DNA from: Bacillota bacterium
GTDB taxonomy: Bacteria; Bacillota; Desulfitobacteriia; Desulfitobacteriales; JAJXUE01
Direction: 5' to 3'
Length of the DNA: 49,484 nucleotides
NCBI GenBank assembly: GCA_021783135.1
Contig: JAJXUE010000018.1
Span: 1-49,484, forward strand
The notes beneath the pieces are model-generated. The model had not been told where the DNA came from, ran no database searches, and saw only the letters and a list, made by a program, of their open reading frames with translations. The position numbers were made by a program, and so were the translations under genes. Below, piece after piece: positions 14,691 to 49,484 of this stretch (positions within the stretch are counted from its first letter, which is position 1; each line of letters starts with the position of its first letter).

Positions 14691-14704
14691 ATTTACACCA
14701 CATT

Positions 14705-15889: not shown

Positions 15890-15984
15890 GCCAGCTTTAC
15901 CCACTCTTGCACGAATAGGTAAAACCAAAATAAGCTCTGTATTTCTGTAAAATGATGTACCATAAAGGCAATAATGACTTAATT

Positions 15985-16010
15985 AACGGTTGTCGGCAAG
16001 AGCAACCGTT
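15985..16010 (+). terminator. Hairpin downstream of the HD-GYP gene
   Basis: AACGGTTG (15985-15992) pairs perfectly with CAACCGTT (16003-16010), followed by TTGTTGT; a moderate terminator about 95 bases after the stop codon. Confidence 0.55.
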
Positions 16011-16071
16011 TTGTTGTGCAAAGTATTGGGTGAAAAAATGACTGTTAAATTGCAGGCAAAAAGGAGGATTG

Positions 16072-16143
16072 ATGAAAAGATTGTCGAATAAAACTCAAAA
16101 TATCTTGCAAAAAAATTGTCGCCATGTGCTTTACTTATGGTGA
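16072..16143 (+). CDS. Possible 23-residue leader peptide before the second chemoreceptor
   Basis: ATG 16072 has AAGGAGG four bases upstream and reads 23 codons (starts MKRLSNKTQNILQK) to a TGA at 16141-16143. That stop is within the descending arm of a terminator hairpin (16118-16149). A translated short frame running into a terminator resembles a leader-peptide attenuator, but I see no run of regulatory codons. It could instead be the remnant of a gene start. Confidence 0.35.
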   Translation: MKRLSNKTQNILQKNCRHVLYLW

Positions 16144-16149
16144 CTTTTT
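16118..16149 (+). terminator. Terminator hairpin in the leader of the second chemoreceptor
   Basis: GTCGCCAT (16118-16125) pairs with ATGGTGAC (16137-16144), one wobble, followed by five T. The start, ATTGTCGCCA, matches that of the riboswitch terminator at 14703, but no c-di-GMP aptamer is visible upstream. Confidence 0.65.
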
Positions 16150-16202
16150 CATTGCCTTAGTGGAGAGCCGAACCGAGCCTAGTATACAAATGGAGGGTAA
16201 AT

Positions 16203-17891: not shown

Positions 17892-17922
17892 CGCGTTTAA
17901 ATACGAGAGGAAAAGACAATCT

Positions 17923-21309: not shown

Positions 21310-21843
21310 GTGAATGATGTGTTGGGATACCTGGAGCGGGAAAGCAAACAGCCGCTAAGTCTTTGCTATCAGTGTCAAAAATGCTCCGGGGGCTGCCCTG
21401 TTAGCAAATTGACTACTGTCATGGCCCATCAAGTCGTGCGTTTGGCGCAACAAGACCAGGTAGAAGCTTTAATCGCCGCGCCACTTGTATGGTACTGCAC
21501 CGGGTGTAAAACGTGTCAAGCTCGTTGCCCGAACGGTATCGACATCTCGGCTGTGCTTGACGTGCTCAAGGCCAAAGTCTTAAGTGAGGCCAACAAGGTC
21601 ACGGACTTAGCTTCTTTTCATACCAGCTTTCTGAATTCTGTGCAACGCCACGGCCGAGTTTACGAATTAGGTATGGTAGTTGGGTACAAATGGCGTGTTA
21701 AGCGATGGCTGGAAGACAAGGAACTTGGCAGCCGCATGTTCCTGAAAGGAAAACTTGCCTTGCTGCCACACCGGATTGCCTATAGACGGCAAGTCAAGGA
21801 CCTATTCCGACTTCAAGCGCGAGGAGGTAGGGAAGATGACTGA
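21310..21843 (+). CDS. hdrC: HdrC-like iron-sulfur subunit
   Basis: 177-residue protein with two [4Fe-4S] motifs, CYQCQKCSGGCP (about residues 18-29) and CTGCKTCQARCP (about 62-73), as in the HdrC subunit that wires HdrA to HdrB. Start GTG behind GGGAGGG. It overlaps hdrB by 8 bases. In acetogens such as Moorella, HdrABC with MvhD and MetFV forms one methylene-tetrahydrofolate reductase complex, and all these genes are present here in order. Confidence 0.9.
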   Translation: MNDVLGYLERESKQPLSLCYQCQKCSGGCPVSKLTTVMAHQVVRLAQQDQVEALIAAPLVWYCTGCKTCQARCPNGIDISAVLDVLKAKVLSEANKVTDLASFHTSFLNSVQRHGRVYELGMVVGYKWRVKRWLEDKELGSRMFLKGKLALLPHRIAYRRQVKDLFRLQARGGREDD

Positions 21844-22708
21844 ACGAGTGAGCTATTATCCCGGTTGTTCCTTGCACACCGGCGCACGCGAATATGATTT
21901 GTCTTGTCGTCGGGTGCTGCAGGCACTAGGTGTATATTGCGCGGAAGTTAACGACTGGAATTGCTGCGGCGCAAGCTCTGCTCACAGTGCAGGTCATGCT
22001 TTAAGCCTAAGCTTGCCGTTGCGCAATTTGCTGTTGTGCCAGGGGGAGAGTGAGCGGTTAGTGGTGCCGTGTGCTGCTTGCTATAACCTGTTACGTACCA
22101 CGACGGAAATTTTGGCGGTTGGAACGCCGGAAGCCAGAAGCGTGCAGGAACAAGTCGAGCAAATTATGGGCAAAGCATACAGCCGAAAAGTCAAGGTAGA
22201 ACATCCTTTGGACTTATTGACACAGCCAGCGCTACTGGCACGCCTCAAAGCACAACTTTGCCAATCACTGCAGGGGTTAAAGCTGGCGCCGTATTATGGT
22301 TGTCTCTTGGTTCGTCCGGAAAATATTGCCTTTGACAACCCGGAACAGCCCCAAAAAATGGATCTGTTGTTGCAGGAATTAGGCGCAGATGTGGTGCGTT
22401 GGTCCTACAAAACTGAATGTTGCGGCGGTGGGCTGGGTATAACTCAGGGCAAGGCCACAACACCTCTAGTGGATAGACTGGTGTATGAGGCCAAACGCGC
22501 CGGCGCAGAAGCTTTAGTAACTGCCTGCCCGCTTTGCCAAGCTAATTTGGAAGGACGGCAAAGTGAGAGTATGCCGGTATTCTACTTCACAGAATTAGTC
22601 GGTTTGGCCTTGGGGCTAGCGGATACCGAAGCCTGGTTTCAAGCACACTTAATTGATGTTTTTCCCCTCTTAAACCAAGTGAAAGGAGGGAGTTTACGTG
22701 TCAGATAA
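21836..22708 (+). CDS. hdrB: HdrB-like CCG-domain subunit
   Basis: 290 residues with two cysteine-rich CCG domains: YYPGCSLH, WNCCGA and PCAACYNLL in the first, YYGCLLVRP, ECCGGGLG and TACPLCQAN in the second, the ligands of the noncubane [4Fe-4S] clusters in HdrB. In methanogens HdrB reduces CoM-S-S-CoB; here, without that substrate, it would relay electrons toward MetVF. ATG 21836 has GAGGTAGGGA upstream; it overlaps hdrC and hdrA. Confidence 0.9.
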   Translation: MTERVSYYPGCSLHTGAREYDLSCRRVLQALGVYCAEVNDWNCCGASSAHSAGHALSLSLPLRNLLLCQGESERLVVPCAACYNLLRTTTEILAVGTPEARSVQEQVEQIMGKAYSRKVKVEHPLDLLTQPALLARLKAQLCQSLQGLKLAPYYGCLLVRPENIAFDNPEQPQKMDLLLQELGADVVRWSYKTECCGGGLGITQGKATTPLVDRLVYEAKRAGAEALVTACPLCQANLEGRQSESMPVFYFTELVGLALGLADTEAWFQAHLIDVFPLLNQVKGGSLRVR

Positions 22709-25700
22709 ACCTGTCGGAGCTGTTTTAGTACTGGGTGGCGGAATTGCCGGTATGCAGTCGGCCCTGGACTTGGCAGAAGGCGGATTTCTCGTACACTTAG
22801 TGACAGATGAGCCTTCTATAGGTGGCAAAATGGCCAAACTGGATAAAACTTTCCCGACTAATGAATGTGCAATGTGTCTGCTCGGGCCTAAAATGTCGGA
22901 CACCGCGAGTCATCCGAATATCAGACTGCACACCTTGAGCAAATTAGCTCAGGTGCAAGGTGAGGCCGGAAACTTTAGCGTCACCGTCCGACATGCGGCC
23001 CGCTTTGTCAACATGGAGGAGTGTACGGCGTGTGGTGAGTGTGAGGCTGTGTGCCCGGTAACGGTAGCGGATGAATTCAACCAAGCCATGAGTGAGCGTA
23101 AGGCGATTTATAAATTGTTTCCGCAGGCCGTGCCCAATAAATACTTGATTGACAAGCGCGGTGAGCCACCTTGCCGTGGTACGTGTCCGGCAGGCTGCAA
23201 TGTGCAAGGGTATGTAGCCTTACTGGCCGAGGGACGTTTCCCTGAAGCCTTAGAAGTTACCCGGCGCAAAATGCCGTTTGCGGGTATCTGCGGTCGTATT
23301 TGTCATCACCCCTGCGAAACAGCTTGTAATCGCAAAGATTTAGACCAGCCCATCGCTATTGCTCAGCTTAAAAGGGCAGCGGCAGACTTTGGCTGGGCTG
23401 AGGCCGAGCAAAAGCAGCTTCTAACCCAAGTACCAAGCGCACCGCAGCTGGACGCCAACGGGCAAGTGCGCAAAGTCGGTATTATTGGCGCCGGGCCGGG
23501 TGGACTGGCTGCAGCGAAAGACTTGGCTGAGCTCGGTTACCAAGTTACCGTGATCGATGCTTTAGCGCAAGCGGGCGGTATGCTTAGTGCCTGCATCCCG
23601 CACTATCGTTTACCTCAGCCTGTAGTGCAACGCGAAATCGCTGCGATATTGGCTTTGGGCATTGAGTTTCGCCCCAATACCACAGTGGGAGTCGATGTTA
23701 GCCTCGCAGAGCTGCAGCAAGAGTTTCCAGCGTTGCTCCTGGCGTTAGGCTGTCAAAAGGGACGCTCTTTGGCGCTTGAGGGTAATGATTTGACTGGAGT
23801 ATTTTCCGGCATAGAGTTCCTGCGTGCCGTAGCCCTGGGGCAATACGTGGCTGTCGGACGGAAAGTTGTCATAGTCGGCGGTGGGAATGTTGCGATTGAC
23901 ACAGCCCGAACCGCCTTGCGCCTAGGCGCAAACGAAGTGCACATCTACTACCGCCGGGACAGAGCCGCAATGCCGGCGCATGCCTGGGAAGTGGCGGAGG
24001 CTGAAGCGGAAGGTGTTGTGCTGCACACCGGTTGGGCGCCTTGCAAACTGGTCGGACAACAGGGTAACTTAAACGGCATCCATTTCCAACGCAGCTCGGC
24101 GGAGGGCCGCGGGAGCTTAAACCTTGATACCACGCAGAATTTGACAGTAGCAGCAGACAGCGTAATTCTGGCCATAGGGCAGGATTCAGACTTAAGCTGC
24201 TTAAACGGCAGCGGCATTGCCACCCAACACGGCAAAATTACGGTTGATGCCCTAACTTATGCCACTGCGGTTGCAGGCATCTTCGCCTGTGGTGATGTGG
24301 TGAGTGGCCCAGCCTCAGTAGTCGAGGCAGTGGGTGCGGCCCATGCCGCAGCAGAATCAATCCATCGTTATCTGCACGGACTAGATTTGGCAGCGGGCAG
24401 GGATACCGCCAAATCACCCTTGGTGGATGCACCGCCTAAAAGTACGCGAATTAAGGTACCGCGTCAAGTGCAGAAGTTAATGGAACCTTCAGTGCGGGCG
24501 CAAAGTTTTGCTGAAGTGTACTCCGGTTATAGCCGGGAAGAGGCTATAGCTGAGGCCCGGCGTTGCTTTAACTGCGGTACCTGTTCTGAGTGTTTGCAGT
24601 GTGTAACCGCGTGCAAAAAAGGAGCCATCAACCATGCTGCATTGCCTACCGAGGAACAACTGCAAGTAGGCGCCATCATTTTAGCACCTGGGTATGAAGT
24701 GCAAGCAGGTGAACTGCGCGGTGAGTATGGCTATGGCATTTATCCAAATGTAATGACCTCGCTGGAGTTTGAGCGTTTACTCAGTTCGACCGGACCTACA
24801 GCAAGTCATGTGCTGCGGCCATCGGATGGCAAAGTACCGCGCAAGATAGCCTTTATCCAGTGCGTTGGTTCGCGGACGTGCAGCAAAGGGAATGCATACT
24901 GCTCCTCAATCTGCTGTATGTACGCCACGAAGGAAGCCCTGATTGCCCGGGAACACGATGCGCAAATTGAACCGACAATCTTTTACCTGGACTTACGCTC
25001 CTATGGCAAGAACTTTGATAAGTATGTTAAAGCGGCACGGGAAGGCGGGGTGCGTTATATCCGGACCATGATTTCCAGTGTGCGGGAAGACCCGGTCAGC
25101 GGTAATCTGCGACTCAAATATGCGCAAGGGGAGGCTTTGCGGGAAGAGGAATTCGACCTGGTCGTGCTGGCAGTGGGGGTTAAACCACCACGAGATGCAG
25201 CGGACTTGGCCAAAATTACCAATATTGAACTGAACGAATACGGTTTTGCCGCTACCAATCCTTTAAACCCGGTTCTCACCTCACAACCAGGCATCTTTGC
25301 GGCCGGAGCTTTTCAAGGACCACGTGATATTCCGGAAACTGTGATTAACGCCAGTGCTGCGGCGGCCGCAGCGGCGACTCAGCTGGCAGCGGGGCGAAAT
25401 CAGCTTATTACTCCGAAAATTTATCCGCCGGAACGCGATGTCCGGGGCGAACCGGCACGAGTAGGTGTGTTTATCTGCCGCTGCGGCATAAATATTGCTT
25501 CCATTGTCGATGTACCCGAAACCCTGGCTTACGTACAAACTTTGCCTGGGGTGGTGCATGCGGAAGAATTTCTCTATACCTGCTCCCAGGATACAATCAA
25601 GCACATCCAGGGGGTAATTGAGGCTTCCCGGCTGAACCGAGTAGTGGTTGCTTCCTGTACCATCCGCACGCATCAGCCTTTATTCCGAGCAGCATTGCGG

Positions 25701-27248
25701 GAAGCCGGGTTAAATCAATTCCTGTTTGAAATGGCCAATATCCGTGACCAGTGTTCCTGGGTGCATCGTTCCGAACCGGCACTTGCCACCCAAAAGGCCC
25801 AAGATTTAATCCGTATGGCTGTAGCCAAGGTCAAGCTCCATGTGCCCTTGCAACTCACACCAATTCCGGTGCGGCCTGCTGCACTCGTGTTGGGCGGCGG
25901 CATTGCCGGCCTGACGGCCAGCCTGCAGTTGGCGCAGCAAGGCTTTAAGGCCTACTTGGTGGAACGGGAACCGGTTTTAGGCGGCGGCATGCGCACGCTT
26001 TCCTGCACTGAAGACGGCCGGGACGCCCAGGCTTACCTGGATAACGTGCTTAATACAGTTCACGCGCACCCACTGATTGAAGTGTTTACTGCCGGTGAAC
26101 TAGTGGACTTTACCGGTCACCAGGGGCATTTCACGAGCACCGTCAAGACTCCCAACGGTGTGCGCAAGTTAGAGCACGGTGTAGTGCTTGTAGCCACAGG
26201 TGGCCAGCCGACAGAAGCTAACCCGCGCTATGGCCGGGGCCGAGACAGGCGGATTATCAGCCTGACTGAATTGGAAGCTAAGCTGGCTGCGGTAGCGCGA
26301 GAGCAGCAAGGTGAGCAGCACACCATTGCAGGTGAGCAGCACGCCATTGCAGGTGAGCAGCACGTCACGGCAGGTGAGCAGCTCGTCACGGCAGGTGAGC
26401 AGCACGCCACTGCAGGCGAGGTTCTAGGGCCCTGGCAGGAGGCAGTGATCGTACTGTGCGCGAGTGCGGGTTCAGATTTGCCTTATTGTAGCAGAACTTG
26501 CTGTACCCAGGCGATCAGCAATGCCATACGGCTCAAACAGCATAATCCCGCCGGTAGGGTGTTTGTACTCTATCGCGACATTCGCACCTATGCCTTTTGG
26601 GAACGTTACTATCGTTTAGCACGGGAAATGGGAATAATCTTCCTCCGTTACGACGGGGAAAACTTACCGCAACCTCAAGTGGGCAGGAACTTGTCCCTTA
26701 CCGTGCCTGATTTAGATGCCGGAATAGAGTGGAAGCTTAAGCCGGATATCATAGCCTTAGCCCAAGGTTTTGGCCCAGCCACAGGCGCGCAGGAGCTAGG
26801 GATGATGTTGAAAGTACCGCTCAACGAAGATGGATTTTTTATGGAGACGCACGCTAAATTGGGACCCATGGATTTTCCGAGCTCCGGGCTGTTTCTCTGT
26901 GGCGGTGCACACGCCCCCAAATTTGTCAGTGAAGCAATCTCTCAGGCGCAAGGCGCGGTAGCCAGGGCGGCAACCATTCTGGCCAAATCACACTTGATGG
27001 TAGGAGGAGTAGTCGCTGCAGTAACCCCGGAAAAATGTGCGGCCTGTTTAACCTGTGTGCGAGTTTGCCCGTACAGTGTGCCAAAGATAGGCCCGGATAT
27101 GGTGGCGACCATAGACGCAGTGCAGTGCCATGGCTGCGGTACGTGTGTGGGTGAATGCCCGGCAAAGGCGATTGAACTGCAACATTATACCGATGCCCAA
27201 ATGCTTGCCAAAATCAGCGCTGTCAAGGAGGTGGACCAGGATGTCTAA
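22698..27248 (+). CDS. hdrA: Giant double HdrA with inserted GltD-like NAD(P)H/FAD module
   Basis: 1516 residues. Order: HdrA FAD start (GGGIAGMQSALDLAEGG, with CAMCLLGPKM), ferredoxin motif CTACGECEAVCP (about 108), a GltD-like unit (CRGTCPAGC near 159, FAD GAGPGG near 260, NAD(P)H GGGNVAIDTA near 390), ferredoxin-like CFNCGTCSECLQC (622), the rest of HdrA (CRCGIN near 927), a second HdrA FAD domain (GGGIAGLTAS near 1063), five 7-residue GEQHxxA repeats (1205-1239) and two [4Fe-4S] motifs (1447-1485). HdrA is the flavin subunit of bifurcating Hdr complexes; the GltD unit would take NAD(P)H electrons. It overlaps its neighbours by 8-11 bases. Confidence 0.9.
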   Translation: MSDKPVGAVLVLGGGIAGMQSALDLAEGGFLVHLVTDEPSIGGKMAKLDKTFPTNECAMCLLGPKMSDTASHPNIRLHTLSKLAQVQGEAGNFSVTVRHAARFVNMEECTACGECEAVCPVTVADEFNQAMSERKAIYKLFPQAVPNKYLIDKRGEPPCRGTCPAGCNVQGYVALLAEGRFPEALEVTRRKMPFAGICGRICHHPCETACNRKDLDQPIAIAQLKRAAADFGWAEAEQKQLLTQVPSAPQLDANGQVRKVGIIGAGPGGLAAAKDLAELGYQVTVIDALAQAGGMLSACIPHYRLPQPVVQREIAAILALGIEFRPNTTVGVDVSLAELQQEFPALLLALGCQKGRSLALEGNDLTGVFSGIEFLRAVALGQYVAVGRKVVIVGGGNVAIDTARTALRLGANEVHIYYRRDRAAMPAHAWEVAEAEAEGVVLHTGWAPCKLVGQQGNLNGIHFQRSSAEGRGSLNLDTTQNLTVAADSVILAIGQDSDLSCLNGSGIATQHGKITVDALTYATAVAGIFACGDVVSGPASVVEAVGAAHAAAESIHRYLHGLDLAAGRDTAKSPLVDAPPKSTRIKVPRQVQKLMEPSVRAQSFAEVYSGYSREEAIAEARRCFNCGTCSECLQCVTACKKGAINHAALPTEEQLQVGAIILAPGYEVQAGELRGEYGYGIYPNVMTSLEFERLLSSTGPTASHVLRPSDGKVPRKIAFIQCVGSRTCSKGNAYCSSICCMYATKEALIAREHDAQIEPTIFYLDLRSYGKNFDKYVKAAREGGVRYIRTMISSVREDPVSGNLRLKYAQGEALREEEFDLVVLAVGVKPPRDAADLAKITNIELNEYGFAATNPLNPVLTSQPGIFAAGAFQGPRDIPETVINASAAAAAAATQLAAGRNQLITPKIYPPERDVRGEPARVGVFICRCGINIASIVDVPETLAYVQTLPGVVHAEEFLYTCSQDTIKHIQGVIEASRLNRVVVASCTIRTHQPLFRAALREAGLNQFLFEMANIRDQCSWVHRSEPALATQKAQDLIRMAVAKVKLHVPLQLTPIPVRPAALVLGGGIAGLTASLQLAQQGFKAYLVEREPVLGGGMRTLSCTEDGRDAQAYLDNVLNTVHAHPLIEVFTAGELVDFTGHQGHFTSTVKTPNGVRKLEHGVVLVATGGQPTEANPRYGRGRDRRIISLTELEAKLAAVAREQQGEQHTIAGEQHAIAGEQHVTAGEQLVTAGEQHATAGEVLGPWQEAVIVLCASAGSDLPYCSRTCCTQAISNAIRLKQHNPAGRVFVLYRDIRTYAFWERYYRLAREMGIIFLRYDGENLPQPQVGRNLSLTVPDLDAGIEWKLKPDIIALAQGFGPATGAQELGMMLKVPLNEDGFFMETHAKLGPMDFPSSGLFLCGGAHAPKFVSEAISQAQGAVARAATILAKSHLMVGGVVAAVTPEKCAACLTCVRVCPYSVPKIGPDMVATIDAVQCHGCGTCVGECPAKAIELQHYTDAQMLAKISAVKEVDQDV
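26310..26414 (+). repeat. Five tandem 21-bp repeats inside hdrA
   Basis: Five in-frame copies of GGTGAGCAGCAC plus nine variable bases encode GEQHTIA, GEQHAIA, GEQHVTA, GEQLVTA and GEQHATA; a sixth begins as GGCGAG. The repeat sits between beta-strands of the second FAD domain, in a probable surface loop. Each unit is seven codons, so copy-number change keeps the frame. Confidence 0.95.
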
Positions 27249-27687
27249 TCGTGATTTTGCACCCAAAATAGTTGCCTTTTGCTGCTACTACTGTGCCTAC
27301 TCTGCAGCTGATTTAGCCGGCTCCCTGCGCTTACAGTATCCGCCCACAGTGCGGTTGATTGAACAGCCGTGTTCAGGCAAAATCGACATAAGGCTGTTGT
27401 TACAGGCCTTTGAAGCCGGAGCGGACGGGGTGTATGTGGCTGGATGCCTGGAAGGAGACTGTCATTTTCTCCAAGGCAATATCCGGGCTAAGAAGCGGGT
27501 TAATGCCGCCAAAAAAATCCTCGACAAGATTGGGGTCGGCGGGGAACGTTTAGAGATGTTTAATTTGTCCGGCTCTATGGGACCTCGCTTTGCCGCAATT
27601 GCCACCGAAATGACTGAGCGCATTTTGCGGCTTGGCCCGAGCCCACTCAGTACGGCCGATAAGGGAGAGGAGGGGAAGGCAGAATGA
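27241..27687 (+). CDS. mvhD: MvhD-like [2Fe-2S] electron-transfer subunit
   Basis: 148 residues. The MvhD/FlpD signature cysteines are seen in VAFCCYYCAYSAAD, EQPCSGKIDI and VAGCLEGDCHF. In methanogens MvhD links hydrogenase to HdrA; in acetogens it is part of the MetFV-HdrABC complex without a hydrogenase, which matches the absence of mvhA/mvhG here. ATG at 27241 overlaps hdrA by 8 bases and the stop overlaps metV (ATGA). Confidence 0.92.
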   Translation: MSNRDFAPKIVAFCCYYCAYSAADLAGSLRLQYPPTVRLIEQPCSGKIDIRLLLQAFEAGADGVYVAGCLEGDCHFLQGNIRAKKRVNAAKKILDKIGVGGERLEMFNLSGSMGPRFAAIATEMTERILRLGPSPLSTADKGEEGKAE

Positions 27688-28355
27688 TCGTCGCAGCAGC
27701 AAAACCCTGGGAAGAGATTATGGCTTCGTTACACGGGATGCATAAAGTACTGGTCGTAGGGTGTGGGGGCTGTGTCGCGGTTTGTCTGGCAGGTGGCGAA
27801 AAAGAAGCCGGCATTATGGCTAGTACGCTGCGCATGCAACGCAAGCTCCAAGGCGAACCCGTCGAAACCGAAGAGATAACCCTAACCCGGCAGTGTGACC
27901 CAGAATATGTACGGGAACTGGGCAAGAAGCTGGAAGGGGTCGATGGTATTCTTTCTCTCGCCTGTGGCGTTGGGGTCCAGGTTATTGCCGAACATTACCC
28001 CAATATCTGGGTTGCTCCGGCTTTAAACACCAAGTTTGCCGGTGCCACCTTAGAGCATGGCAGCTGGGAAGAACGCTGTGGCTTATGTGGTGACTGCGTG
28101 CTGGGCCAAACCGGCGGTATTTGCCCGATTATCCGCTGTGCCAAAAGCCTGCTCAACGGACCATGCGGCGGCTCACAAGACGGTAAATGTGAGGTCAAGC
28201 CTAACGAGTGCGCGTGGAACCTGATATACGAACGGATGGGCCGGTTAGGCAGGCTAAACCAGTTATTGGAAGTAGCGGAAGCCAAGGATTGGTCGCAGGG
28301 CCGAGACGGCGGGCCGCGCCGGGTAGTCAGAGAGGATGTGAAGCTGGATGACTGA
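27684..28355 (+). CDS. metV: MetV, zinc/iron-sulfur partner of methylene-THF reductase
   Basis: 223 residues of the methylenetetrahydrofolate reductase C-terminal (MetV) family. Cysteines occur in VVGCGGCVAVC, LACGVGVQ and the C-terminal cluster region CGLCGDCVLGQTGGICP with PCGGS. MetV partners MetF in acetogens and carries an iron-sulfur cluster that feeds the flavin of MetF. The start overlaps mvhD (ATGA) and the end overlaps metF by 8 bases, so stoichiometric coupled translation is likely. Confidence 0.92.
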   Translation: MIVAAAKPWEEIMASLHGMHKVLVVGCGGCVAVCLAGGEKEAGIMASTLRMQRKLQGEPVETEEITLTRQCDPEYVRELGKKLEGVDGILSLACGVGVQVIAEHYPNIWVAPALNTKFAGATLEHGSWEERCGLCGDCVLGQTGGICPIIRCAKSLLNGPCGGSQDGKCEVKPNECAWNLIYERMGRLGRLNQLLEVAEAKDWSQGRDGGPRRVVREDVKLDD

Positions 28356-29265
28356 GCCAAGCAGCAAACTACAAAGCTTGTTAGACTCGGGGCAGTTCGT
28401 GGTTACGTGCGAGATTGGACCGCCGAAAAACGCATCAGGTACAGGGATTACCCAGCATGCCGCTCAGCTTAAGGCTTATGCCGCTGCGATGAATTTAACT
28501 GACAACCAGACTGCAATCGTGCGACTTTCCAGCATCGCTGCAGGCGTACACGTCTTGGCCGGCGGAGGAGAACCAATCATCCAGATGACCTGCCGTGATC
28601 GTAATCGGATAGCGCTGCAAAGTGACTTGCTGGGCGCGTACAGTCTGGGTCTGCGCAATCTGCTCTGTCTGTCCGGCGACCATCAGGCTTTCGGCAATCA
28701 TCCGGCTGCCAAAAACGTCTTTGACCTGGATTCCATCCAGCTAATCAAAACAGTTAAAGATATGCGCGACAGCAAGGTGTTTCATTGCGGGGAAAAAATT
28801 AAACAGGATGAGCCTCAGTTCTATATCGGGGCAGTAGCTAATCCTTTTGCTGACCCGTTCGAATATCGGGTGCATCGGTTGGAGAAAAAAATTCGGGCGG
28901 GAGCACAGTTCATTCAAACCCAATGTATTTTTGACATGCAGCGCTTTGAAACCTTCATGGACTTAGCACGTAAGCGCGGTCTGCCTGAGCGCACTCACAT
29001 TCTGGCCGGCGTAATGCCGATTAAGTCAGCCAAGGTCGCTAAGTATATGCAAAAAAACGTTTCCGGCATGTTGGTGCCGCAGGCAGTTATCGAACGCCTG
29101 GAGCAGGCGGAAGATCAGGCTCAGGAAGGCGTGAAAATCTGTATCGAACAAATCCGGCACCTCAAGACTATACCGGGAATCCATGGCGTGCATATTATGG
29201 CAGTGGCTTGGGAAGAAATTGTGCCGAGTATCGTTACAGGGGCCGGGCTTATGCCCAGGCTTTAA
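28348..29265 (+). CDS. metF: 5,10-methylenetetrahydrofolate reductase
   Basis: 305 residues of the MTHFR TIM-barrel family: reduces methylene-THF to methyl-THF with a bound flavin. Seen: FVVTCEIGPPKNASG at the start, the NLLCLSGDHQAFG segment and AQFIQTQCIFD. Together with MetV and the Hdr/MvhD genes upstream it completes the methyl branch step of the Wood-Ljungdahl pathway, as in Moorella. It could also run oxidatively. ATG overlaps metV by 8 bases; last gene of the sigma-54 operon, with a small Cys-rich gene 16 bases later. Confidence 0.94.
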   Translation: MTEPSSKLQSLLDSGQFVVTCEIGPPKNASGTGITQHAAQLKAYAAAMNLTDNQTAIVRLSSIAAGVHVLAGGGEPIIQMTCRDRNRIALQSDLLGAYSLGLRNLLCLSGDHQAFGNHPAAKNVFDLDSIQLIKTVKDMRDSKVFHCGEKIKQDEPQFYIGAVANPFADPFEYRVHRLEKKIRAGAQFIQTQCIFDMQRFETFMDLARKRGLPERTHILAGVMPIKSAKVAKYMQKNVSGMLVPQAVIERLEQAEDQAQEGVKICIEQIRHLKTIPGIHGVHIMAVAWEEIVPSIVTGAGLMPRL

Positions 29266-39607: not shown

Positions 39608-41191
39608 ATGCTGTTACAGCAAATCGACCGGTGGGCGACTTTGTGCCCACAACGAATAGTGCATCAAAGTCGCGATGAGTCTTTGACCTATGCTGAACTT
39701 AAAACTTATTCCGACGCGCTAGCTCACTGGATTTTGCGCCATGTGGTCAGTAACCGGCAACCTCAAGTCCCCATCATCGTGTATGGACACAAAGAAGCTG
39801 CCATGCTGGTGTTGTTTTTAGCGTGCATCAAGTCCGGTCATCCCTATATCCCCATTGATATATCTGTCCCACCGGAACGGTTGCAGCAAATTGTCGTACG
39901 CTCCGGTGCAGCAGCTATTCTTTCACCCCGCGACATACCGGATCTGGTAGTAGCTAGTGGTATAGTGTGTCAGGCTCAAATCCATTTGCCGGAGTGGCTG
40001 AGCGGCGCGTATCCTCCGCAGGGCAGTGTTTTGAATGAGGATGAAGCGGAATTGCCCGAACTAATTGGTTATGACGATGTGTGGTATATCATTTTCACCT
40101 CCGGCAGCACCGGCGAACCTAAAGGCGTGCAGATCACCCAACGCGCGTTAGCAACATTTCTCGACTGGGTCAACCGAGAATATACACCGCGACCGCAACA
40201 GGAGGTTTTCCTGAATCAAGCACCATTTTCCTTTGATTTGTCGGTCATGGATGTGTATATGGCGTTAACCAATGGTGGTACTTTGTGGAGTGTGGATCAA
40301 ACCCACATCGCGAACCCACGTGAGTTGTTTCAGTCTCTCGCAGCATCAGACGTTAGTTACTGGGTATCGACACCCTCATTTGCCGAAATGTGCCTGTTGG
40401 ATCGGGGCTTTACAGCGGAACTCATGCCTCAATTGAGCCATTTTCTATTTTGTGGGGAGGTTCTGCCCAACGCGGTAGCTGCAGGACTCCTGCAGCGCTT
40501 TGCTCAGGCTGACGTGATTAATATGTATGGCCCCACCGAATGCACAGTCGCAGTATCAGGCGTCAATATCACCCCGGACATGGCAGCGAGTAATCTACCG
40601 CTTCCTGTGGGGCAAAGTATTGCCGCGTGTCAAATCTATATTTGTGAGCCGGAAGGACGTACTGTTCTGCCGTCCGGAGTGCACGGTGAGATCGTCATTG
40701 TCGGCCCGAATGTGAGTATAGGATATCTTCACCAGCCGGAATTGACCGAACGCGTCTTTTTACAATGGCAGGAGGGAGAACTAAGCCGGCAAGCGTATCG
40801 TACCGGGGACATCGGGTATTGGCAAGATGGACTTTTGTACTACCAGGGGCGCCGTGATTTCCAAGTAAAATTGCATGGCTACCGTATAGAATTGGGTGAA
40901 ATCGAAGCACAACTGCGCCAATTACCGGAAGTGGAGAATGCGGTCGTCATTCCTATCGTACGCCGCGGCAAAAATGCCGCGTTAGAGGCTTATATTGCGC
41001 TGCGGTCAGACCCAGTAATGGCTACTGCTGTAAGCGATATGGGGAATTTGCTACGGCAAAAACTAAGCCAGGTATTACCGGCCTATATGCTGCCGCAGCG
41101 GTATACCTTTATTTCAAGCATCCCGCTCACCGCCAACGGCAAGGCCGATCGTAACGCACTACGCTTTAAGGCTGTTGCGGCAATGCAATAA
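39608..41191 (+). CDS. dltA: D-alanine--D-alanyl carrier protein ligase; C-terminus replaced by HemL residues
   Basis: 527-residue adenylation enzyme that activates D-alanine and loads DltC. FTSGSTGEPKGV (P-loop), YGPTECTVAVSG, YRTGDIGYW and the C-terminal NGKADRNALR (catalytic lysine region) are intact, so function is probably kept. The last 8 residues FKAVAAMQ and stop are those of HemL: from 41164 the sequence is the duplicated block. ATG with TAGGAGAAGG site. dltB would be expected next but is not in the window. Confidence 0.92.
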   Translation: MLLQQIDRWATLCPQRIVHQSRDESLTYAELKTYSDALAHWILRHVVSNRQPQVPIIVYGHKEAAMLVLFLACIKSGHPYIPIDISVPPERLQQIVVRSGAAAILSPRDIPDLVVASGIVCQAQIHLPEWLSGAYPPQGSVLNEDEAELPELIGYDDVWYIIFTSGSTGEPKGVQITQRALATFLDWVNREYTPRPQQEVFLNQAPFSFDLSVMDVYMALTNGGTLWSVDQTHIANPRELFQSLAASDVSYWVSTPSFAEMCLLDRGFTAELMPQLSHFLFCGEVLPNAVAAGLLQRFAQADVINMYGPTECTVAVSGVNITPDMAASNLPLPVGQSIAACQIYICEPEGRTVLPSGVHGEIVIVGPNVSIGYLHQPELTERVFLQWQEGELSRQAYRTGDIGYWQDGLLYYQGRRDFQVKLHGYRIELGEIEAQLRQLPEVENAVVIPIVRRGKNAALEAYIALRSDPVMATAVSDMGNLLRQKLSQVLPAYMLPQRYTFISSIPLTANGKADRNALRFKAVAAMQ

Positions 41192-41201
41192 CTTAAATTT
41201 T

Positions 41202-41243
41202 AAATGAGCCGACGCAGATTGCTTGCGCTGGCTCATTTTTTTC
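41202..41243 (+). terminator. Terminator, duplicate of the one after hemL
   Basis: Same hairpin as 9855-9896. Here it would end the dlt transcript just after the hybrid dltA. Confidence 0.8.
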
Positions 41244-41260
41244 ACTATGAGAAAGGATAA

Positions 41261-41382
41261 CCTCGCCAACTAGGCGAGGACCGCGGAAGATAGTACGAGG
41301 AAAAACGCGCGCAGTGGAAACCGATGCGCGCTTTTCTTGGCCCCTTAACATACAATGAACGAGAAACCATTGGTATTGTATG
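41261..41382 (+). other. Hairpin cluster, copy 2
   Basis: Same three hairpins as 9914-10035, identity unknown. Confidence 0.4.
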
Positions 41383-41404
41383 GGGAGGGAAGGGGTGAAG
41401 CTCT

Positions 41405-41572
41405 GTGCTGGTTATTCGCAAGTCCAGCGTGCAACGCGGCATGACAGTAAGACTGATTCCGTTGACGCGCCAAATCAAAGGCTTTCCGGTAATGCAGGAA
41501 CCCCGCACCCTTTATCCCTCAGACCCTAAGCTATTGCTCAGAGGGAGGGGTTTTTTCGGTGGCTATCGATAA
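41405..41572 (+). CDS. Possible small protein, 55 aa (copy 2)
   Basis: Identical to 10058-10225; GTG start with the same ribosome site and the same 14-base overlap with the SDH gene. Uncertain for the same reasons. Confidence 0.3.
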   Translation: MLVIRKSSVQRGMTVRLIPLTRQIKGFPVMQEPRTLYPSDPKLLLRGRGFFGGYR

Positions 41573-42362
41573 AAATGAGCGCATCAAATTGCTGCGCCAA
41601 CTCGAATCGCAACGTAATTCTAAGGTATTAGTGTATTTTTCTTATACCCCCCTGGATGACAACATTTTAATGCCTTTATATTCGCAACTCGTAACAATTG
41701 GGAAAACAGAAAAAATAGACTTATTCTTGCACTCGTATGGCGGCGCAGTGGATACCCCATTCAAAGTAGTTACCTTAATTCGTGAGTTTTGTGACAAGTT
41801 TGGCGTAATCGTACCATTTGTGGCCAAAAGTGCCGCATCGATGATTGCGATTGGTGCGGATGAAATTGTGATGGGTCCGGTTTCGGAGCTCGGTCCCATC
41901 GACCCGTTAGTAAAACATCCCTTGTATAAAGAACTGTGGATACCGGTGCAGGCCATTCGCTATTGTCTTGACTACATTCAGCGTACCATTCAAGAAAACC
42001 CTGAACCAGATACAGCAGCCTTGGCCTTATCCCCAATTATGAACAAGCTGGATCCATGGATTATCGGCGACTATGAAAAAGCCATTAAAGCCTCGAAACA
42101 GTACGCGCAGCAGTTGCTCGCCAGTTACATGTTTAAGAACCAGCCGGAAAAAATTGAGGGTGCCACCAAGGCCCTTGTCGAAGGTTACTTTTCCCACGGT
42201 TATCCCATTGGACGTAAGGAAGCGAAAGAGGAGTTAGGCCTAAACATCGTTGAAGCCACTGGGGAGCTTTGGCAAACAATCTGGGAACTATACACCTCGT
42301 ATGACGAAATAATGGTTGAAAGGGACTATGTCAGTATCATTGATTACAGTAAAGTGGAATAG
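41559..42362 (+). CDS. SDH-family ClpP-fold serine protease-like protein (copy 2)
   Basis: Identical 267-residue product to 10212-11015, with the same GTG start, SYGGAVDTP and SAASM motifs. In this copy it lies downstream of dltA rather than hemL. If the duplication is real its dosage is doubled. Confidence 0.8.
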   Translation: MAIDKNERIKLLRQLESQRNSKVLVYFSYTPLDDNILMPLYSQLVTIGKTEKIDLFLHSYGGAVDTPFKVVTLIREFCDKFGVIVPFVAKSAASMIAIGADEIVMGPVSELGPIDPLVKHPLYKELWIPVQAIRYCLDYIQRTIQENPEPDTAALALSPIMNKLDPWIIGDYEKAIKASKQYAQQLLASYMFKNQPEKIEGATKALVEGYFSHGYPIGRKEAKEELGLNIVEATGELWQTIWELYTSYDEIMVERDYVSIIDYSKVE

Positions 42363-42417
42363 CAAAATCGCAATTGCATATGTACAATATCAGGTCAGCA
42401 AGTTCGAATCGGGAGCA

Positions 42418-42459
42418 CTGTAATTAGGCAAGTTTGCGGGACAGCTTGCCTAATTACAG
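42418..42459. repeat. Perfect 15-bp inverted repeat (copy 2)
   Basis: Same as 11071-11112. Confidence 0.6.
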
Positions 42460-42595
42460 GAATGGACAAATATGGTAGGGTTATTTTCTTTACCAAAAGG
42501 AATCCTAGGGTGTACTATTAACTCACATTATTTTTTTAGCTATTGCTATTAGGCGAAGTATTTAGTTTTAAATTGTAGAAGATATGCAAAATAGT

Positions 42596-42625
42596 TTGAG
42601 ATTTCTTTTAATACTGTTTTATGAT
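42596..42625 (+). promoter_or_regulatory. Candidate promoter of tatA (copy 2)
   Basis: Same TTGAGA-18-TATGAT as at 11249. Confidence 0.45.
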
Positions 42626-42652
42626 ATAGTTATATGTAGGAGGTGAATACCC

Positions 42653-42844
42653 ATGTTAACTTTTGGATGGTTTAATACTACTACTGCTCTAGTCGTATTG
42701 GGGATTGCTTTGGTCATCTTTGGACCGGGTAAACTACCTGAACTAGGTGGCGCCTTGGGCAAAGGTATTAAGGAATTTAAATCTGCTTCAGATGGTGAAA
42801 AAAAACAAGCTGAGAATGAAGAGGTAAAATCCGAGTCCAAGTAG
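42653..42844 (+). CDS. tatA: TatA/E-family protein (copy 2)
   Basis: Identical 63-residue TatA to that at 11306, with its own ribosome site and candidate promoter, so it should be expressed independently of the junction. Confidence 0.88.
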   Translation: MLTFGWFNTTTALVVLGIALVIFGPGKLPELGGALGKGIKEFKSASDGEKKQAENEEVKSESK

Positions 42845-42913
42845 ATTAGATATTATCTTGGATTACGATTACACATTACGATGTAGTTTGTTTAATTTAC
42901 CTATAATTAAGCC

Positions 42914-42942
42914 TTGATTTGTTTGACTCAACATGCTATATT
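42914..42942 (+). promoter_or_regulatory. Candidate promoter of tRNA-Leu (copy 2)
   Basis: Same TTGATT-17-TATATT as at 11567. Confidence 0.45.
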
Positions 42943-42963
42943 ATGTTTTGTCACTAATGAGTT

Positions 42964-43050
42964 GCGGTCGTGGCGGAACTGGCAGACGCGCTAGATTCAG
43001 GTTCTAGTGCTCGCAAGGGCATGGAGGTTCAAGTCCTCTCGACCGCACCA
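42964..43050 (+). tRNA. tRNA-Leu (anticodon CAG), copy 2
   Basis: Identical to 11617-11703, anticodon CAG at 42998-43000. Confidence 0.93.
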
Positions 43051-43053
43051 AAT
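43037..43053. repeat. att-like repeat at tRNA 3' end (copy 2)
   Basis: Same 17 bases as 11690-11706; partner at 43809-43825. Confidence 0.55.
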
Positions 43054-43062
43054 CGACGTTTT

Positions 43063-43102
43063 AGAGCGTTTTATCGTAGGAATACGGTAGAACGTTCTTT
43101 TT
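43063..43102 (+). terminator. Terminator after tRNA-Leu (copy 2)
   Basis: Same hairpin and T tract as 11716-11755. Confidence 0.7.
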
Positions 43103-43274
43103 GCGTGTATTGAGCTTTCTTTTGGGTACAGCATTTCTTACAAGACGGTGGCTTAGGTAGGGCTTATTAATGAACGGTACTAATTATGTGCCAGTTGTTC
43201 CATACATCTGCATTATTTTACCGATTGACAAGCATCTTCCCACAAGCGTAGCCTACGTATAGAGGCAAACTTAA

Positions 43275-43667
43275 GGAGAGCAAAAGTATGACGTTGGTGG
43301 ATATGCCTGGACAAACCCAAATGACCCGACTCAAGCAATTCAAGCTATTGAATCTGGTAATGTAGGCGCACTTATGGACGAATCAACAGGGAAATGGAAT
43401 ATCACAGGAATTTTTGGGCAACCAGACAAACAATGGTCAAATATTAGTTCGAATGGAGAAACTGGCAGTTTTATAGATACTTCAAAAATAATACCATTTA
43501 CTATGTCTGGTTCATATAGTAAAACCCAATATATAGGATATGGGAAGGCGTTTATCATTAAAAGACCGGAACCGTATTCATTTTATATAGAGGTTTGGGG
43601 CTCTCAGACTCTTGCTAATGCAGTATTATCAACAGTACAGATAGAAGAAGATAGTGCACATTCATGA
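43275..43667 (+). pseudogene. Fragment of an unrecognised gene (copy 2)
   Basis: Identical to 11928-12320, with the same missing start. Confidence 0.4.
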
Positions 43668-43808
43668 CTATTACTAAAGGCGGTAATAACTTAAATTTGA
43701 TTTTTCAATTAAAGCCTGGCATAAAGCATTATAATATAGGGCTTGGCCATGACATGATTGGAATTTCATTTCAATAGATATATGTTTATTTAATTGTCTA
43801 AAGCCGCA

Positions 43809-43825
43809 TCTCGACCGCACCAAAT
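43809..43825. repeat. att-like repeat, distal (copy 2)
   Basis: Same 17 bases as 12462-12478. Confidence 0.55.
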
Positions 43826-43832
43826 ACGCTGA

Positions 43833-43869
43833 TCGACGGCTTTTCCTGTAAGGGAGAGTCGTTTTTTTA
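43833..43869 (+). terminator. Terminator after the att-like repeat (copy 2)
   Basis: Same as 12486-12522. Between here and 44111 I see no feature apart from the ribosome site of the next gene. Confidence 0.45.
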
Positions 43870-44111
43870 TTTCCCGCATGAGGTTATCTATACGTCATTT
43901 TAAAGGTTTGCCAGCAACGTCCGTGCATTAGAGGGCGACCGAGAAAAATGTTGCTTAATGGCACTTATACCTGTAACATGTGTAAATAGGCAATATTCGT
44001 TTATATGACGAACATATGACCAACTTTTGACCTATTAAGGAACCTATCGTCGCATAGAGCTGGTTTTCCGCTTGTGCACGAAGAGGGTGTAGCAAAAAGG
44101 AGTGTGTAGGT

Positions 44112-45830
44112 GTGCAGTGGTTTATAAATTTTAAAACTGCCCAAAAAATCATGAGCGTTGTGGTTCTCCTGATTCTCTTTATGATTGGGATTTGGACGGT
44201 AGTATTTTACTACAGCAGCAGGGCCAACAGCAATCTGACTGAAATGTATCAAGGGAACCTGGTTCCGATTAAAGACCTAAACGATGCCAGAGTCAAAATG
44301 CGTCATTACGAAGGGACGGTTTTTGAGTCGGTAATTACTGCAGCTGACAAAAATCGTATCAAAGATTTAAGCCAAGAATCAAAAGCTGCGGTAGAAGCGC
44401 TCAATCAAGATTTGGCAGACTATCAAAAGCAAAGTTTGGACTCCTTCGAAGCGTCTAAACTTGCCGCACTACTGCCAACTGTTAGTACGTACGAAACCGG
44501 AGTGCAAAAGGTGTTAGCGCTAGTTCAGGCTGGCAACCCCACCGCTGCTTTCCAGTATTATAAGACCAACCTGGACACTACTGCCGATAACATAGCCCAG
44601 GCTTTATCTGATCTTGCCACGCACAATGACAACTTGGCAAACGCCATGAACCTGCAAACTAAGTCTGAAGCGATTATCTCAACTGAAATATCCATAGGTA
44701 TTATGTTATTGGCCATTATTTTAGCTTTGGCACTAGGCCTTTTTGTGGCCAAGATCATTGCCAATCCACTTAAATTGATGACGCAGAGCGCCCAGGAGAT
44801 TGCCACAGGTAATCTGGCTGTTGACATTATTAAAGTTGCCTCGCATGACGAAGTTGGGTTATTGAGCACATCGCTAATAACAATGACAACCAATTTACGC
44901 GGGTTGATTCGAACAGTTGCCGAATCGTCAGAGCAGGTCGCGGCTTCTGCCGAGGAACTAACCGCTAGTGCCGAACAGAATGCCCAAGCTTCTGATCAAG
45001 TAGCCGGATCGATTAATGCAGTAGCAGCCGGGGCTGAACACCAAGTTGATGCCGTAAATGAAACTTCTGCTGCCATTGAACAAATATCTACCAGTATCCA
45101 ACAAGTGGCAGTAAGCAGCAACAATGTTGCGAACCAAACGCAAAACACCACGAGTGTAACCAAAGAAGGTCAAGGTGCCATCGCAAGAGCTATTAGTCAG
45201 ATGGGAAAAGTTGATCAAGGGACTGTCAAAGTACAGGCGGCTATTAACAAACTAGCCGGTAGTTCGGAGGAAATTGGCAATATTATTGGGATGATTACCG
45301 ACATAGCCAATCAAACCAATCTGCTTGCACTTAATGCGGCCATTGAAGCGGCCCGAGCCGGTGAACAAGGGCGAGGCTTTGCGGTAGTGGCGGAAGAGGT
45401 ACGTAAACTGGCTGAACAAGCAGCAGGTGCGGCGCAACAAATTGGTCAATTAATTCAAGAAAACCAAATTGACCTTAATACTGCAGTGGAGTCGATGCAG
45501 CAGGGTTCCCAAGATGTAATGCTGGGAAAATCCGTTGTAGGTGAAGCCGGTGATGCTTTCGGAGCCATAGCTGAAGCAATCGAGCTTGTTTCCGGTCAAG
45601 TGCAGGAAATTTCCGCCACAATTCAACAGATGGCCGGGAGTAGTCAGCAGGTAGTTGCTTCTATTCGTAAAATCGAACTCATCAGTAAGGAGAGTTCAGA
45701 TCAAGCTCAAACCGTAGCGGCAGCAACCGAGGAGCAGTCGGCGTCTGTGGAGCAAATTGCCAATGCGAGCCAAAGCTTGGCTCTAATGGCCCAACAACTG
45801 CAGAACAGTGTGAGTAATTTCCGCATCTAA
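44112..45830 (+). CDS. Methyl-accepting chemotaxis protein (copy 2 of the 572-aa receptor)
   Basis: Identical product to 12765-14483: two membrane helices, helical sensor, HAMP and MCP signalling tip. GTG start. Confidence 0.92.
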
Positions 45831-45946
45831 TCAAACACGCAATGTTATTAAAAAAATGGTAGACATAGGCAAATTAAGTGAAATATTAGCAGGAATCCGG
45901 ACATTTTTGGCGAAGATTATAAAAAAGTTAATTATAATTGCTGTAT

Positions 45947-46037
45947 CTGTCGACAATGGCAAACCTGCTTAAAGGTGGGGACGCAAAGCTACGAGTCTAA
46001 GGTGGACAAAAACACTATGATGGTCGGGCTATCGAAA
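45947..46037 (+). ncRNA. Cyclic di-GMP-I riboswitch aptamer (copy 2)
   Basis: Same aptamer as 14600-14690 with the same downstream terminator and HD-GYP gene. Confidence 0.88.
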
Positions 46038-46051
46038 ATTTACACCACATT

Positions 46052-46087
46052 GTCGCCACGTAAGCATTGTTTCGTGGCGACTTTTTT
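46052..46087 (+). terminator. Riboswitch terminator (copy 2)
   Basis: Same GTCGCCACG/CGTGGCGAC hairpin and T tract as 14705-14740. Confidence 0.8.
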
Positions 46088-46114
46088 GTGCGGGAGAAAA
46101 CGGGGTGTGGACAC

Positions 46115-47236
46115 GTGGATATTAGCTTAATACCAGTGCAAGTTGATGCCTTGGACGTTGGAGTTCTGACAAGCTATGACCTTTTTGATGAGGTCGGTAA
46201 ACTGTTATTGGCCAAAGACGAGTTAGTAACAGAGAGCGTATATGAACTGCTGCAAAGGCGCCAGGTGTACAGAATCGCGCAGGGACACGTTGAAGCAGTG
46301 CCAGTTAAACGGTTCTCGGCTCATGTTTATCGTGAGGTTTTGACTAAGGTTCAGCACCTATACTATGAAGCGGCACTGGTAGATTCGGAGCAATTGAGCC
46401 AAACAATTGAATTGGTGGAAGTAATGGTCAAGGAGCTGGAAACCTGCCCCAAACAGTTTGTCGATCTTAACGCCTTGCGTACCTATGATAATGATCTCTA
46501 TGTGCATTCAGTTAACGTTGCGATCTTGTCCGGCATGATCGGAGCGGAACATGGCTACTCGGGCAGGGAACTGCGCGGGCTCGTGTTGGGTGCTTTGCTG
46601 CATGACATAGGTAAACTTGGTATACCAAAAGAAATTTTAAATAAACCTTCCGGTTTGACGAACGACGAATTTGCTTTGATGAAGGAGCATCCGGAAAAAG
46701 GCGTTGCATTGTTGGCTAATGTTACGGTATCCGCGAGTGTGCTCAATATCATCCGACATCATCATGAGCGTTGGGATGGCTCTGGCTATCCCTATGGGCT
46801 AATTGGCCCTAAAAATTCACTTAATTCGCAAATCGTGGCTGTTGCCGACGTGTTCGATGCTATAACAGCTGATCGCCCCTATCGCAGCGGTTTACCGTTT
46901 TATCACTCCTACGAATTAGTGGTTACTAATCAGGGACTTAATCCTGATGTGCTCCAGGTCTTTAAACGTTGCATTGTGTTTTACCCGGAAAATTCCTTTG
47001 TGACCTTAAATACGGGAGAGGTTGGGCAAGTTATTGAGGTGCCCTTGCACTATCCTACGCGTCCCACAGTGCGTGTTTTGTTCGATTCTGCCGGAAATCC
47101 GGTATTTCAGCAAACAATTAGTTTATTGGATGATTTGACCCGATTCATCAGTAAGGTATCTTTTGATGGCGGGGATGAAAAATATCACACTTCTCCCGTG
47201 ATTTGGCACATTGACTCTAAGGCTGGTCTGAGTTAA
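46115..47236 (+). CDS. HD-GYP c-di-GMP phosphodiesterase (copy 2)
   Basis: Identical 373-residue product to 14768-15889, from the same GTG start, under its own riboswitch copy. Confidence 0.9.
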   Translation: MDISLIPVQVDALDVGVLTSYDLFDEVGKLLLAKDELVTESVYELLQRRQVYRIAQGHVEAVPVKRFSAHVYREVLTKVQHLYYEAALVDSEQLSQTIELVEVMVKELETCPKQFVDLNALRTYDNDLYVHSVNVAILSGMIGAEHGYSGRELRGLVLGALLHDIGKLGIPKEILNKPSGLTNDEFALMKEHPEKGVALLANVTVSASVLNIIRHHHERWDGSGYPYGLIGPKNSLNSQIVAVADVFDAITADRPYRSGLPFYHSYELVVTNQGLNPDVLQVFKRCIVFYPENSFVTLNTGEVGQVIEVPLHYPTRPTVRVLFDSAGNPVFQQTISLLDDLTRFISKVSFDGGDEKYHTSPVIWHIDSKAGLS

Positions 47237-47331
47237 GCCAGCTTTACCCACTCTTGCACGAATAGGTAAAACCAAAATAAGCTCTGTATTTCTGTAAAAT
47301 GATGTACCATAAAGGCAATAATGACTTAATT

Positions 47332-47357
47332 AACGGTTGTCGGCAAGAGCAACCGTT
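47332..47357 (+). terminator. Hairpin after HD-GYP gene (copy 2)
   Basis: Same as 15985-16010. Confidence 0.5.
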
Positions 47358-47418
47358 TTGTTGTGCAAAGTATTGGGTGAAAAAATGACTGTTAAATTGC
47401 AGGCAAAAAGGAGGATTG

Positions 47419-47490
47419 ATGAAAAGATTGTCGAATAAAACTCAAAATATCTTGCAAAAAAATTGTCGCCATGTGCTTTACTTATGGTGA
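47419..47490 (+). CDS. Possible 23-residue leader peptide (copy 2)
   Basis: Identical to 16072-16143. Confidence 0.3.
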   Translation: MKRLSNKTQNILQKNCRHVLYLW

Positions 47491-47496
47491 CTTTTT
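47465..47496 (+). terminator. Terminator in chemoreceptor leader (copy 2)
   Basis: Same as 16118-16149. Confidence 0.6.
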
Positions 47497-47549
47497 CATT
47501 GCCTTAGTGGAGAGCCGAACCGAGCCTAGTATACAAATGGAGGGTAAAT

Positions 47550-49238
47550 ATGAAAATTAGAGCTAAATTGGTCACAGCCTTTGGCATAGTTTTATTGATT
47601 TCCGCTTTACAAGGGGCGGTAGAGATCGTAGTTTCGAATAATATCAATAATTCTGTCAAAAGCATCAGCAACAAGTGGCTGCCGTCGCTTGGGTATATAA
47701 GTGAACTGGATACCCAAACCTCAGAGCTGCGCTTAAATGAGCTTCAACTCATAACCATGCCGGACATGCGACAACAAACGACCCAAAGTATTGCTACATT
47801 GTCTAATGAAATTAATGCGGACATGGCTAAATATGCGGCCACAATGACCACACCGGAGGAAAAAACCAACTGGGCTACGTTTACGCGCGGCTATCAAGCG
47901 TATGTGCAAAATGATGAGACCATCTCTGAGTTAGTTGACGGAGGTAGTACTGACGCAGCCCTAATTCAATACGACTCCAGTGTGACTGCGTACAACCAAT
48001 TTAAAGCTCCACTCAAGAACCTGGTTGCTTTAAATATCAACAACGGCGCTAAAGAAGCAACAATTTCGCAAACAGCCTTTGACTCTGGCCGCATAATTTC
48101 CTTCATTGCACTGGGGCTAAATATCCTGTTAGGTATGTTGCTGGCTTGGTATATAGCGGTATCACTGACCAAAACCGTCCAGCAGTTGGGTGATGCCATT
48201 GACGAAGTTGCCGAGGGTAACCTTGCTATCGACAAAGTGAAAATTAATACTCAAGATGAAATCAGTCAAATGGCAGGTTCCTTTAATACCATGGTAGCGA
48301 ATCTGCGTGCGCTAATTAAGAATGTGGCTGAAGCGGCGGAGCAAGTAGCTGCTTCCTCTCAGGAATTAACCGCAAGCTCGGAACAGCATGCCCAAGCAAC
48401 TACCCAGGTCGCAACGGCGATCGAAGGTGTTGCCAGCGGGACACAAAAGCAGGCTGATGCGGTCAATGAAACTTCTGCGGCCATCGAACAAGTGTCAATC
48501 AGCATTCAACAAGTTGCGGAAAACGCCAATAGCGTAGCCGGTTTAACCGACATCACCACCCAGGCGACACAAGTTGGCTACTCGGCAGTTAACAAGGCTG
48601 TCAGCCAGATGGACAATGTGGGCAAGAGCACGGCGCAGGTTCAAGCGGCCATTGAACAGTTGGAAACAGGCTCCAACAAAATCGGTGAAATTTCTAGCGT
48701 AATCGCCGATATTGCCAGCCAGACCAACCTTTTAGCGTTAAATGCTGCAATTGAGGCGGCAAGGGCAGGGGAACAAGGACGCGGTTTTGCGGTAGTCGCA
48801 GAAGAAGTGCGTAAATTGGCCGAGCAGTCGCAAAATGCTGCCCAGGAGATTACTCAGCTGATTGATGAAAACAAGATTGGTATTGATAACGCAGTAGCTA
48901 CGATGAATACGGGTGCCAACGAAGTTAAAGTTGGCATGGAGGTGGTTAATACTGCCGGTGATTCTTTTAAAGATATCGCAGCTTCCGTAGAGCAGGTGGC
49001 GGAGCGCATCAAGGAAATTTCTGTGACTATTCAGCAGATGGCAAACGGTAGTCAACAGATTGTGGACTCGATTCATTCAATTGACATGGTGAGCAAGGAA
49101 AACTCCAGCCAATCCCAAACAGTTTCGGCTGCAACGGAAGAACAGGCAGCGTCAGTTGAAGAAATTGCCTCCGCCAGTCAGAATCTAGCTGTTTTAGCCC
49201 AAACCTTGCAGAACGCTACGGCAAAATTCCGCGTTTAA
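47550..49238 (+). CDS. Methyl-accepting chemotaxis protein (copy 2 of the 562-aa receptor)
   Basis: Identical product to 16203-17891, complete within the duplicated block. Confidence 0.92.
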
Positions 49239-49269
49239 CGCGTTTAAATACGAGAGGAAAAGACAATCT

Positions 49270-49479
49270 ATGTTGACAAAAAAGCTGTTTCAGTCTAAAT
49301 ATCTTACGTCCTTGCACCTTAAGATCTTCCTTTTTACGATGATGCTCATATTTTTAATGACAGCCGCTTTTCTAGTAGTTATTTTTGCTTCAGGAGTTAA
49401 TGCTATCACGCGAAATTTGATCATAGAGGTTAATGTTGTGGCGGCTGTCTTGATTGCCGGTGCCGGGCGTATAAAATAG
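49270..49479 (+). pseudogene. Truncated copy of the sensorless chemoreceptor
   Basis: Matches the gene at 17923 for its first 66 codons and the first two bases of codon 67, then reads R-I-K-stop in 15 bases not found at copy 1. Only the two membrane helices remain; HAMP and the signalling domain are lost. Either a real breakpoint or an artefact of the end of the assembled sequence. Confidence 0.8.
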
Positions 49480-49484
49480 ATTTT

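Follow-up and report, generated by a model that had tools for sequence, protein, structure and literature searches.

The window, the whole stretch of DNA analysed, comprises all of contig C48 (49,484 bp), one of the 67 contigs of a 2,710,149-bp genome assembly that is 96.7% complete. Base-by-base comparison revealed that positions 41164-49469 are an exact copy of positions 9817-18122, 8,306 bp long, with no mismatches and in the same (+) orientation; the direct repeat of 8.3 kb proposed in an earlier sequence-only reading is thus borne out. The copies lie 31,347 bp apart and form the single direct-repeat family found in C48 by a repeat search, and from this offset the repeat unit would span 9817-41163 (+), or 31,347 bp. 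An all-versus-all comparison of both ends of all 67 contigs, which covers 53% of the genome bases, found no other near-identical repeats longer than ~230 bp. Since these stretches contain nothing comparable, the 8,306-bp repeat is far beyond chance.

No further copies of the unit were found outside C48: the only matches were a 90-bp end of contig C51, a dispersed 105-bp element, and diverged paralogues with at most 68% identity over long stretches. The C51 end is the only other trace in the assembly of the right-hand part of the unit. After its 8,306 bp, copy 2 gives way to 15 divergent bases, TATAAAATAGATTTT (49470-49484, +), at which C48 ends. This tail has no match anywhere else in the assembly and is probably an assembly tip; on the right, the repeat is cut short by the end of a contig and not by a biological boundary.

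Gene content of the repeated segment

Copy 1 contains the 3' end of hemL, the dispersed element, a gene for a ClpP/SDH-type protease, tRNA-Leu(CAG), a gene for a methyl-accepting chemotaxis protein (MCP), a c-di-GMP-I riboswitch with an HD protein gene, a further MCP gene, and the start of a third. The entire unit carries, along with the protease and MCP genes, a sigma-54 activator gene, Hdr-like/FlpD/MetV-MetF genes, cytochrome genes, iorAB-paaK, and dltD-dltX-dltA. No integrase, relaxase, replication, or phage genes were present among the main open reading frames identified in the unit, and the surroundings of each repeat border yielded no mobile-element genes. A mobile element or prophage was considered and rejected, as no such genes were found among these frames and the borders cut two genes of conserved neighbourhoods.

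Several features of the unit merit description in their own right. The dispersed intergenic element (~105 bp; 9887-9993 and 41234-41340) occurs at ~30 places in the genome with 79-97% identity. It has two hairpins, with T-rich sequence after the second one, and folds well below shuffled sequences (z -4.0); both stems are kept in most of 10 aligned copies, including the two in C48, and its position gave no Rfam match at the gathering score. The c-di-GMP-I riboswitch (14601-14689, copied at 45948-46036; 72 bits) lies directly upstream of the HD-domain gene at 14720-15889, and this pair sits between two chemoreceptor genes. It is possible that the riboswitch exerts feedback control over a putative c-di-GMP phosphodiesterase. 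The cluster at 21310-29265 encodes Fe-S and CCG-domain proteins, a 1,516-amino-acid flavin/Fe-S fusion, and FlpD/MvhD-like and MetV/MetF-like proteins. It resembles an electron-bifurcating methylene-tetrahydrofolate reductase complex whose HdrA-like fusion protein is unusually long.

The dltA-hemL join and the native dltA exit

At the left border of the unit, hemL (glutamate-1-semialdehyde aminotransferase; 8507-9844, +) is intact, matches Pfam Aminotran_3, and is 82% identical to the hemL genes of two genomes from the same family; the border falls within its last 28 bases. At the other end, dltA (39608-41191, +; 527 codons) stays open across the join and terminates with hemL's own C-terminus, its last 8 codons being the last 8 of hemL, so that GGKYDPIR is replaced by FKAVAAMQ. 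Translation thus confirmed the earlier description of an in-frame fusion of dltA to the last 28 bases of hemL. Native and fused DltA are both 527 amino acids long, and the fused protein retains its core, including PLTANGKADRNAL. Of these 527 residues, the DltA family models NF003417 and TIGR01734 reach no further than 518-519, and the change is confined to the final 8, so the fused protein is predicted to be probably functional.

Contig C51 (138,223 bp) surfaced when the genome was searched with the join sequence. Positions 41075-41164 (+) of C48 are identical over 90 bp to its reverse strand, an overlap that reaches the very end of C51 (base 138,223) and stops at the join. From there, the reverse strand of C51 continues dltA as NALRGGKYDPIR followed by the stop codon, with the ATG start of dltB inside the dltA end; the encoded DltB matches TIGR04091. 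In the assembly, dltA therefore has two exits, into dltB on C51 and into the 3' end of hemL on C48. On C51 (minus strand of locus L009, 6916-8124), the reading frame that comes after dltB on the same strand is helicase-like, and immediately behind dltB there is no evident dltC carrier-protein gene.

We compared both borders with those of relatives rather than with a second genome of the species, a scan of GTDB contigs for DltA having returned distant homologues only. All six relatives in which the dlt region was read have dltA directly followed by dltB, and in four of the six in which the hemL region was read, the protease gene comes next after hemL. As relatives keep both arrangements, copy 1 and C51 represent the ancestral context, whereas the dltA-hemL join, and with it the context of copy 2, is derived. 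Both ancestral junctions are present in the assembly, with hemL intact across 9817 and dltA-dltB intact in C51, and they match the gene order of the relatives. The sequence-only reading had counted a related complete genome with dltA directly before dltB and one hemL at single depth as evidence against the join; the dltA-dltB part of this was indeed seen, but it tells us that the join is derived, not whether it is real or an artefact.

The native sequence on C51 also allows the crossover to be placed at position 41164, a single C common to native dltA and to hemL (at 9817). With a slash marking the breakpoint, native dltA reads CTACGC/GGAGG, hemL reads AGTAGCC/TTTAAGG, and the join reads CTACGC/TTTAAGG. 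The motif CTTTAAG, taken earlier for a microhomology at the crossover, is not one, since TTTAAG derives from hemL alone; one base is shared. We found no homology at the breakpoints beyond chance: apart from that base, the two loci match each other around the breakpoints no better than randomly paired 120-base segments do, 24% of such pairs scoring as high. A one-base homology is what chance predicts for random joining and for ligation chimeras. The same join had no exact match in IMG/VR.

Contig ends and the assembly graph

Comparison of both ends of all 67 contigs identified 13 pairs overlapping by exactly 126 bp and 4 by 127 bp; in all 17 cases, one contig of the pair extends 0 to 24 divergent bases further. 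The left end of C48 bears this usual signature: positions 7-132 (+) overlap the end of its left neighbour, C52, by 126 bp and are preceded by 6 divergent bases. The 15-bp tail on the right falls within the same 0- to 24-bp range. metaSPAdes is reported to leave perfect overlaps of n-1, where n is the largest k, and a single confusing read can block a join (PMC7111523). Most simply, then, the sequence was assembled in a de Bruijn graph with k=127 from reads of roughly 150 bases, the assembler and k being deduced from the contigs; the read length is suggested by the longest tail, as 150 - 126 = 24. From the overlaps of C48 with C52 (126 bp) and with C51 (90 bp), the order C52-C48-C51 can be assigned, and the assembly could be joined further, as exact 126-bp ends recur in several other pairs of contigs.

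Such a graph would account for the extent of the repeat. If A denotes 9817-18122 and B denotes 18123-41163, then given a loop edge from B to A and a tip that dead-ends behind A, the sole walk that uses all edges is hemL-A-B-A-tip, which would be C48 exactly. The 8.3-kb length would then mark merely where the tip happened to sit, and the implied unit would be 31,347 bp. At k=127, the join would need ~126 consecutive spanning k-mers, of which one 150-base read would supply 24, so that a single chimeric read should not suffice. At the fork, the native side lost its continuity, the overlap with C51 being 90 bp instead of 126, which suggests that the join is not a trace sequence.

Proposed tandem duplication and its alternatives

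The segments are identical and in direct orientation, and a novel end-to-start join links them at 41164, as in a tandem duplication. We favor, at about even confidence, the reading that at least part of the sampled DNA carries a recent head-to-tail duplication or amplification of 9817-41163, made by illegitimate recombination or template switching. It is supported by 8,306 bp repeated exactly at an offset that stays at 31,347 bp, and by the presence of both dltA exits in an assembly in which C51 ends at the fork. The one-base homology counts against it, as random ligation gives the same, and so does the end of C48 only 15 divergent bases beyond the equivalent of 18122. A tandem-repeat join with a unit of 31,347 bp, first suggested from the window itself, stands as the best reading, backed by the native exit on C51 and the gene order of the relatives, while the microhomology argument made for it has fallen away. 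The contig alone does not decide between duplication and assembly error; the continuation of copy 2 beyond 49469, the read support for the join, the copy number, and any effect are points that we infer.

Under the duplication reading, the dltA and hemL 3' ends would have been linked through one shared base, without extended homology, either by an illegitimate join between sister chromatids or by template switching, and a second unit would thereby have been placed head to tail. The ancestral order C52 - hemL - unit - dltA - dltB (C51) would then have become hemL - unit - [dltA::hemL 3' end] - unit ... dltA - dltB, in which dltA would be open in every copy and dltB would stand behind the last copy only. 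RecA-dependent recombination between the 31-kb copies could then expand or remove the duplication (PMC11721125). The likely effect would be extra dosage of the unit genes, and transcription from dltDXA could run into the protease region of the next copy. A stronger version, in which a multi-copy, naturally selected amplification of the Hdr-like/FlpD/MetV-MetF, cytochrome, and indolepyruvate oxidoreductase genes arose without homology in an uncultured or little-studied anaerobe and out-competed the native join in the assembly, seems to us unlikely.

The chief rival, which we hold to be a substantial possibility though short of even, is a chimeric join made during library preparation, amplification, or assembly, with a dltA piece fused to a hemL 3' piece and the edge taken up by the assembler; the real order would then be C52-C48-C51, and the loop would have made the assembler repeat part of the segment. 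A single shared base is what chance would give, the same assembly holds a native dltA-dltB that links C51 to C48 perfectly, unplaced bases lie at the C48 end, and rare artificial concatenation and chimeric joins have been described in metagenome assemblies (Chen et al., PMC7111523). Against this, k=127 would require several staggered spanning reads, although the spanning k-mers could also stem from a chimeric fragment multiplied by PCR or whole-genome amplification. Nor does an artefact readily explain why the native contig is broken exactly at the fork, with the join competing on equal terms, why the two sides share a genome and an orientation, which a duplication would demand, or why no second case of this size occurs among the contig ends.

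Two other origins appear less plausible. An excised circular molecule of 31,347 bp closed at dltA/hemL would have the same join sequence as a tandem array, and such a circle, or a mixed population with some rearranged cells, would fit the presence of both native flanks. We regard this as improbable: no integrase, relaxase, or replication gene is among the unit genes identified, the borders cut conserved gene neighbourhoods, and the matching hemL-dltB deletion join, the scar that excision would leave, is absent from the assembly. Least probable is an insertional duplication, in which 9817-18122 alone was copied into dltA, as the sequence-only reading had allowed. On the face of it, the identity does stop after 8,306 bp and other bases follow. 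However, the right end shows no return to dltA or dltB, the bases after 49469 matching neither dltB nor any other sequence in the assembly; the tail has a length usual for contig ends here; and no mobile-element genes turned up near the borders. This alternative is therefore unsupported.

If the duplication is real, C48 has caught, at one junction, a natural change in gene dosage by tandem duplication over energy-metabolism genes. If it is an artefact, C48 double-counts 8.3 kb, including the tRNA-Leu, the riboswitch, the protease gene, and MCP genes, and masks the true dltA-dltB join. Either way, C52, C48, and C51 can be joined in that order, and the C-terminus of the dltA product annotated on C48 is non-native.

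Both readings have counterparts among known systems. In metagenome assemblies (PMC7111523), as in C48, identical sequence can be repeated within one contig, contig ends overlap by a k-dependent length, and confusion from as little as one read leaves contigs unjoined. The concatenations described there sometimes involve hundreds of base pairs repeated several times, whereas C48 repeats 8.3 kb once more, at a 31-kb offset and with a competing native exit. In Salmonella chemostats, duplication-type junctions were likewise recognized as split sequences, but candidates with less than ~11 bp of junction microhomology failed duplication verification and the verified ones had at least 11 bp (PMC3411829), compared with 1 bp at the C48 join. 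Non-homologous and microhomology amplification junctions are nevertheless documented, as in the 7- to 13-kb sdrM amplifications of Staphylococcus aureus (PMC11721125). With spontaneous bacterial tandem duplications and amplifications of this kind, C48 shares a head-to-tail direct repeat of kilobases to tens of kilobases, a novel join of two normal loci, retained native flanks, and identical copies. It differs in its one-base homology, in not being mediated by an insertion sequence, rrn, or other repeat, and in having no known selection. If real, the feature in C48 is of the ordinary bacterial tandem duplication type, and nothing about it departs from that class.
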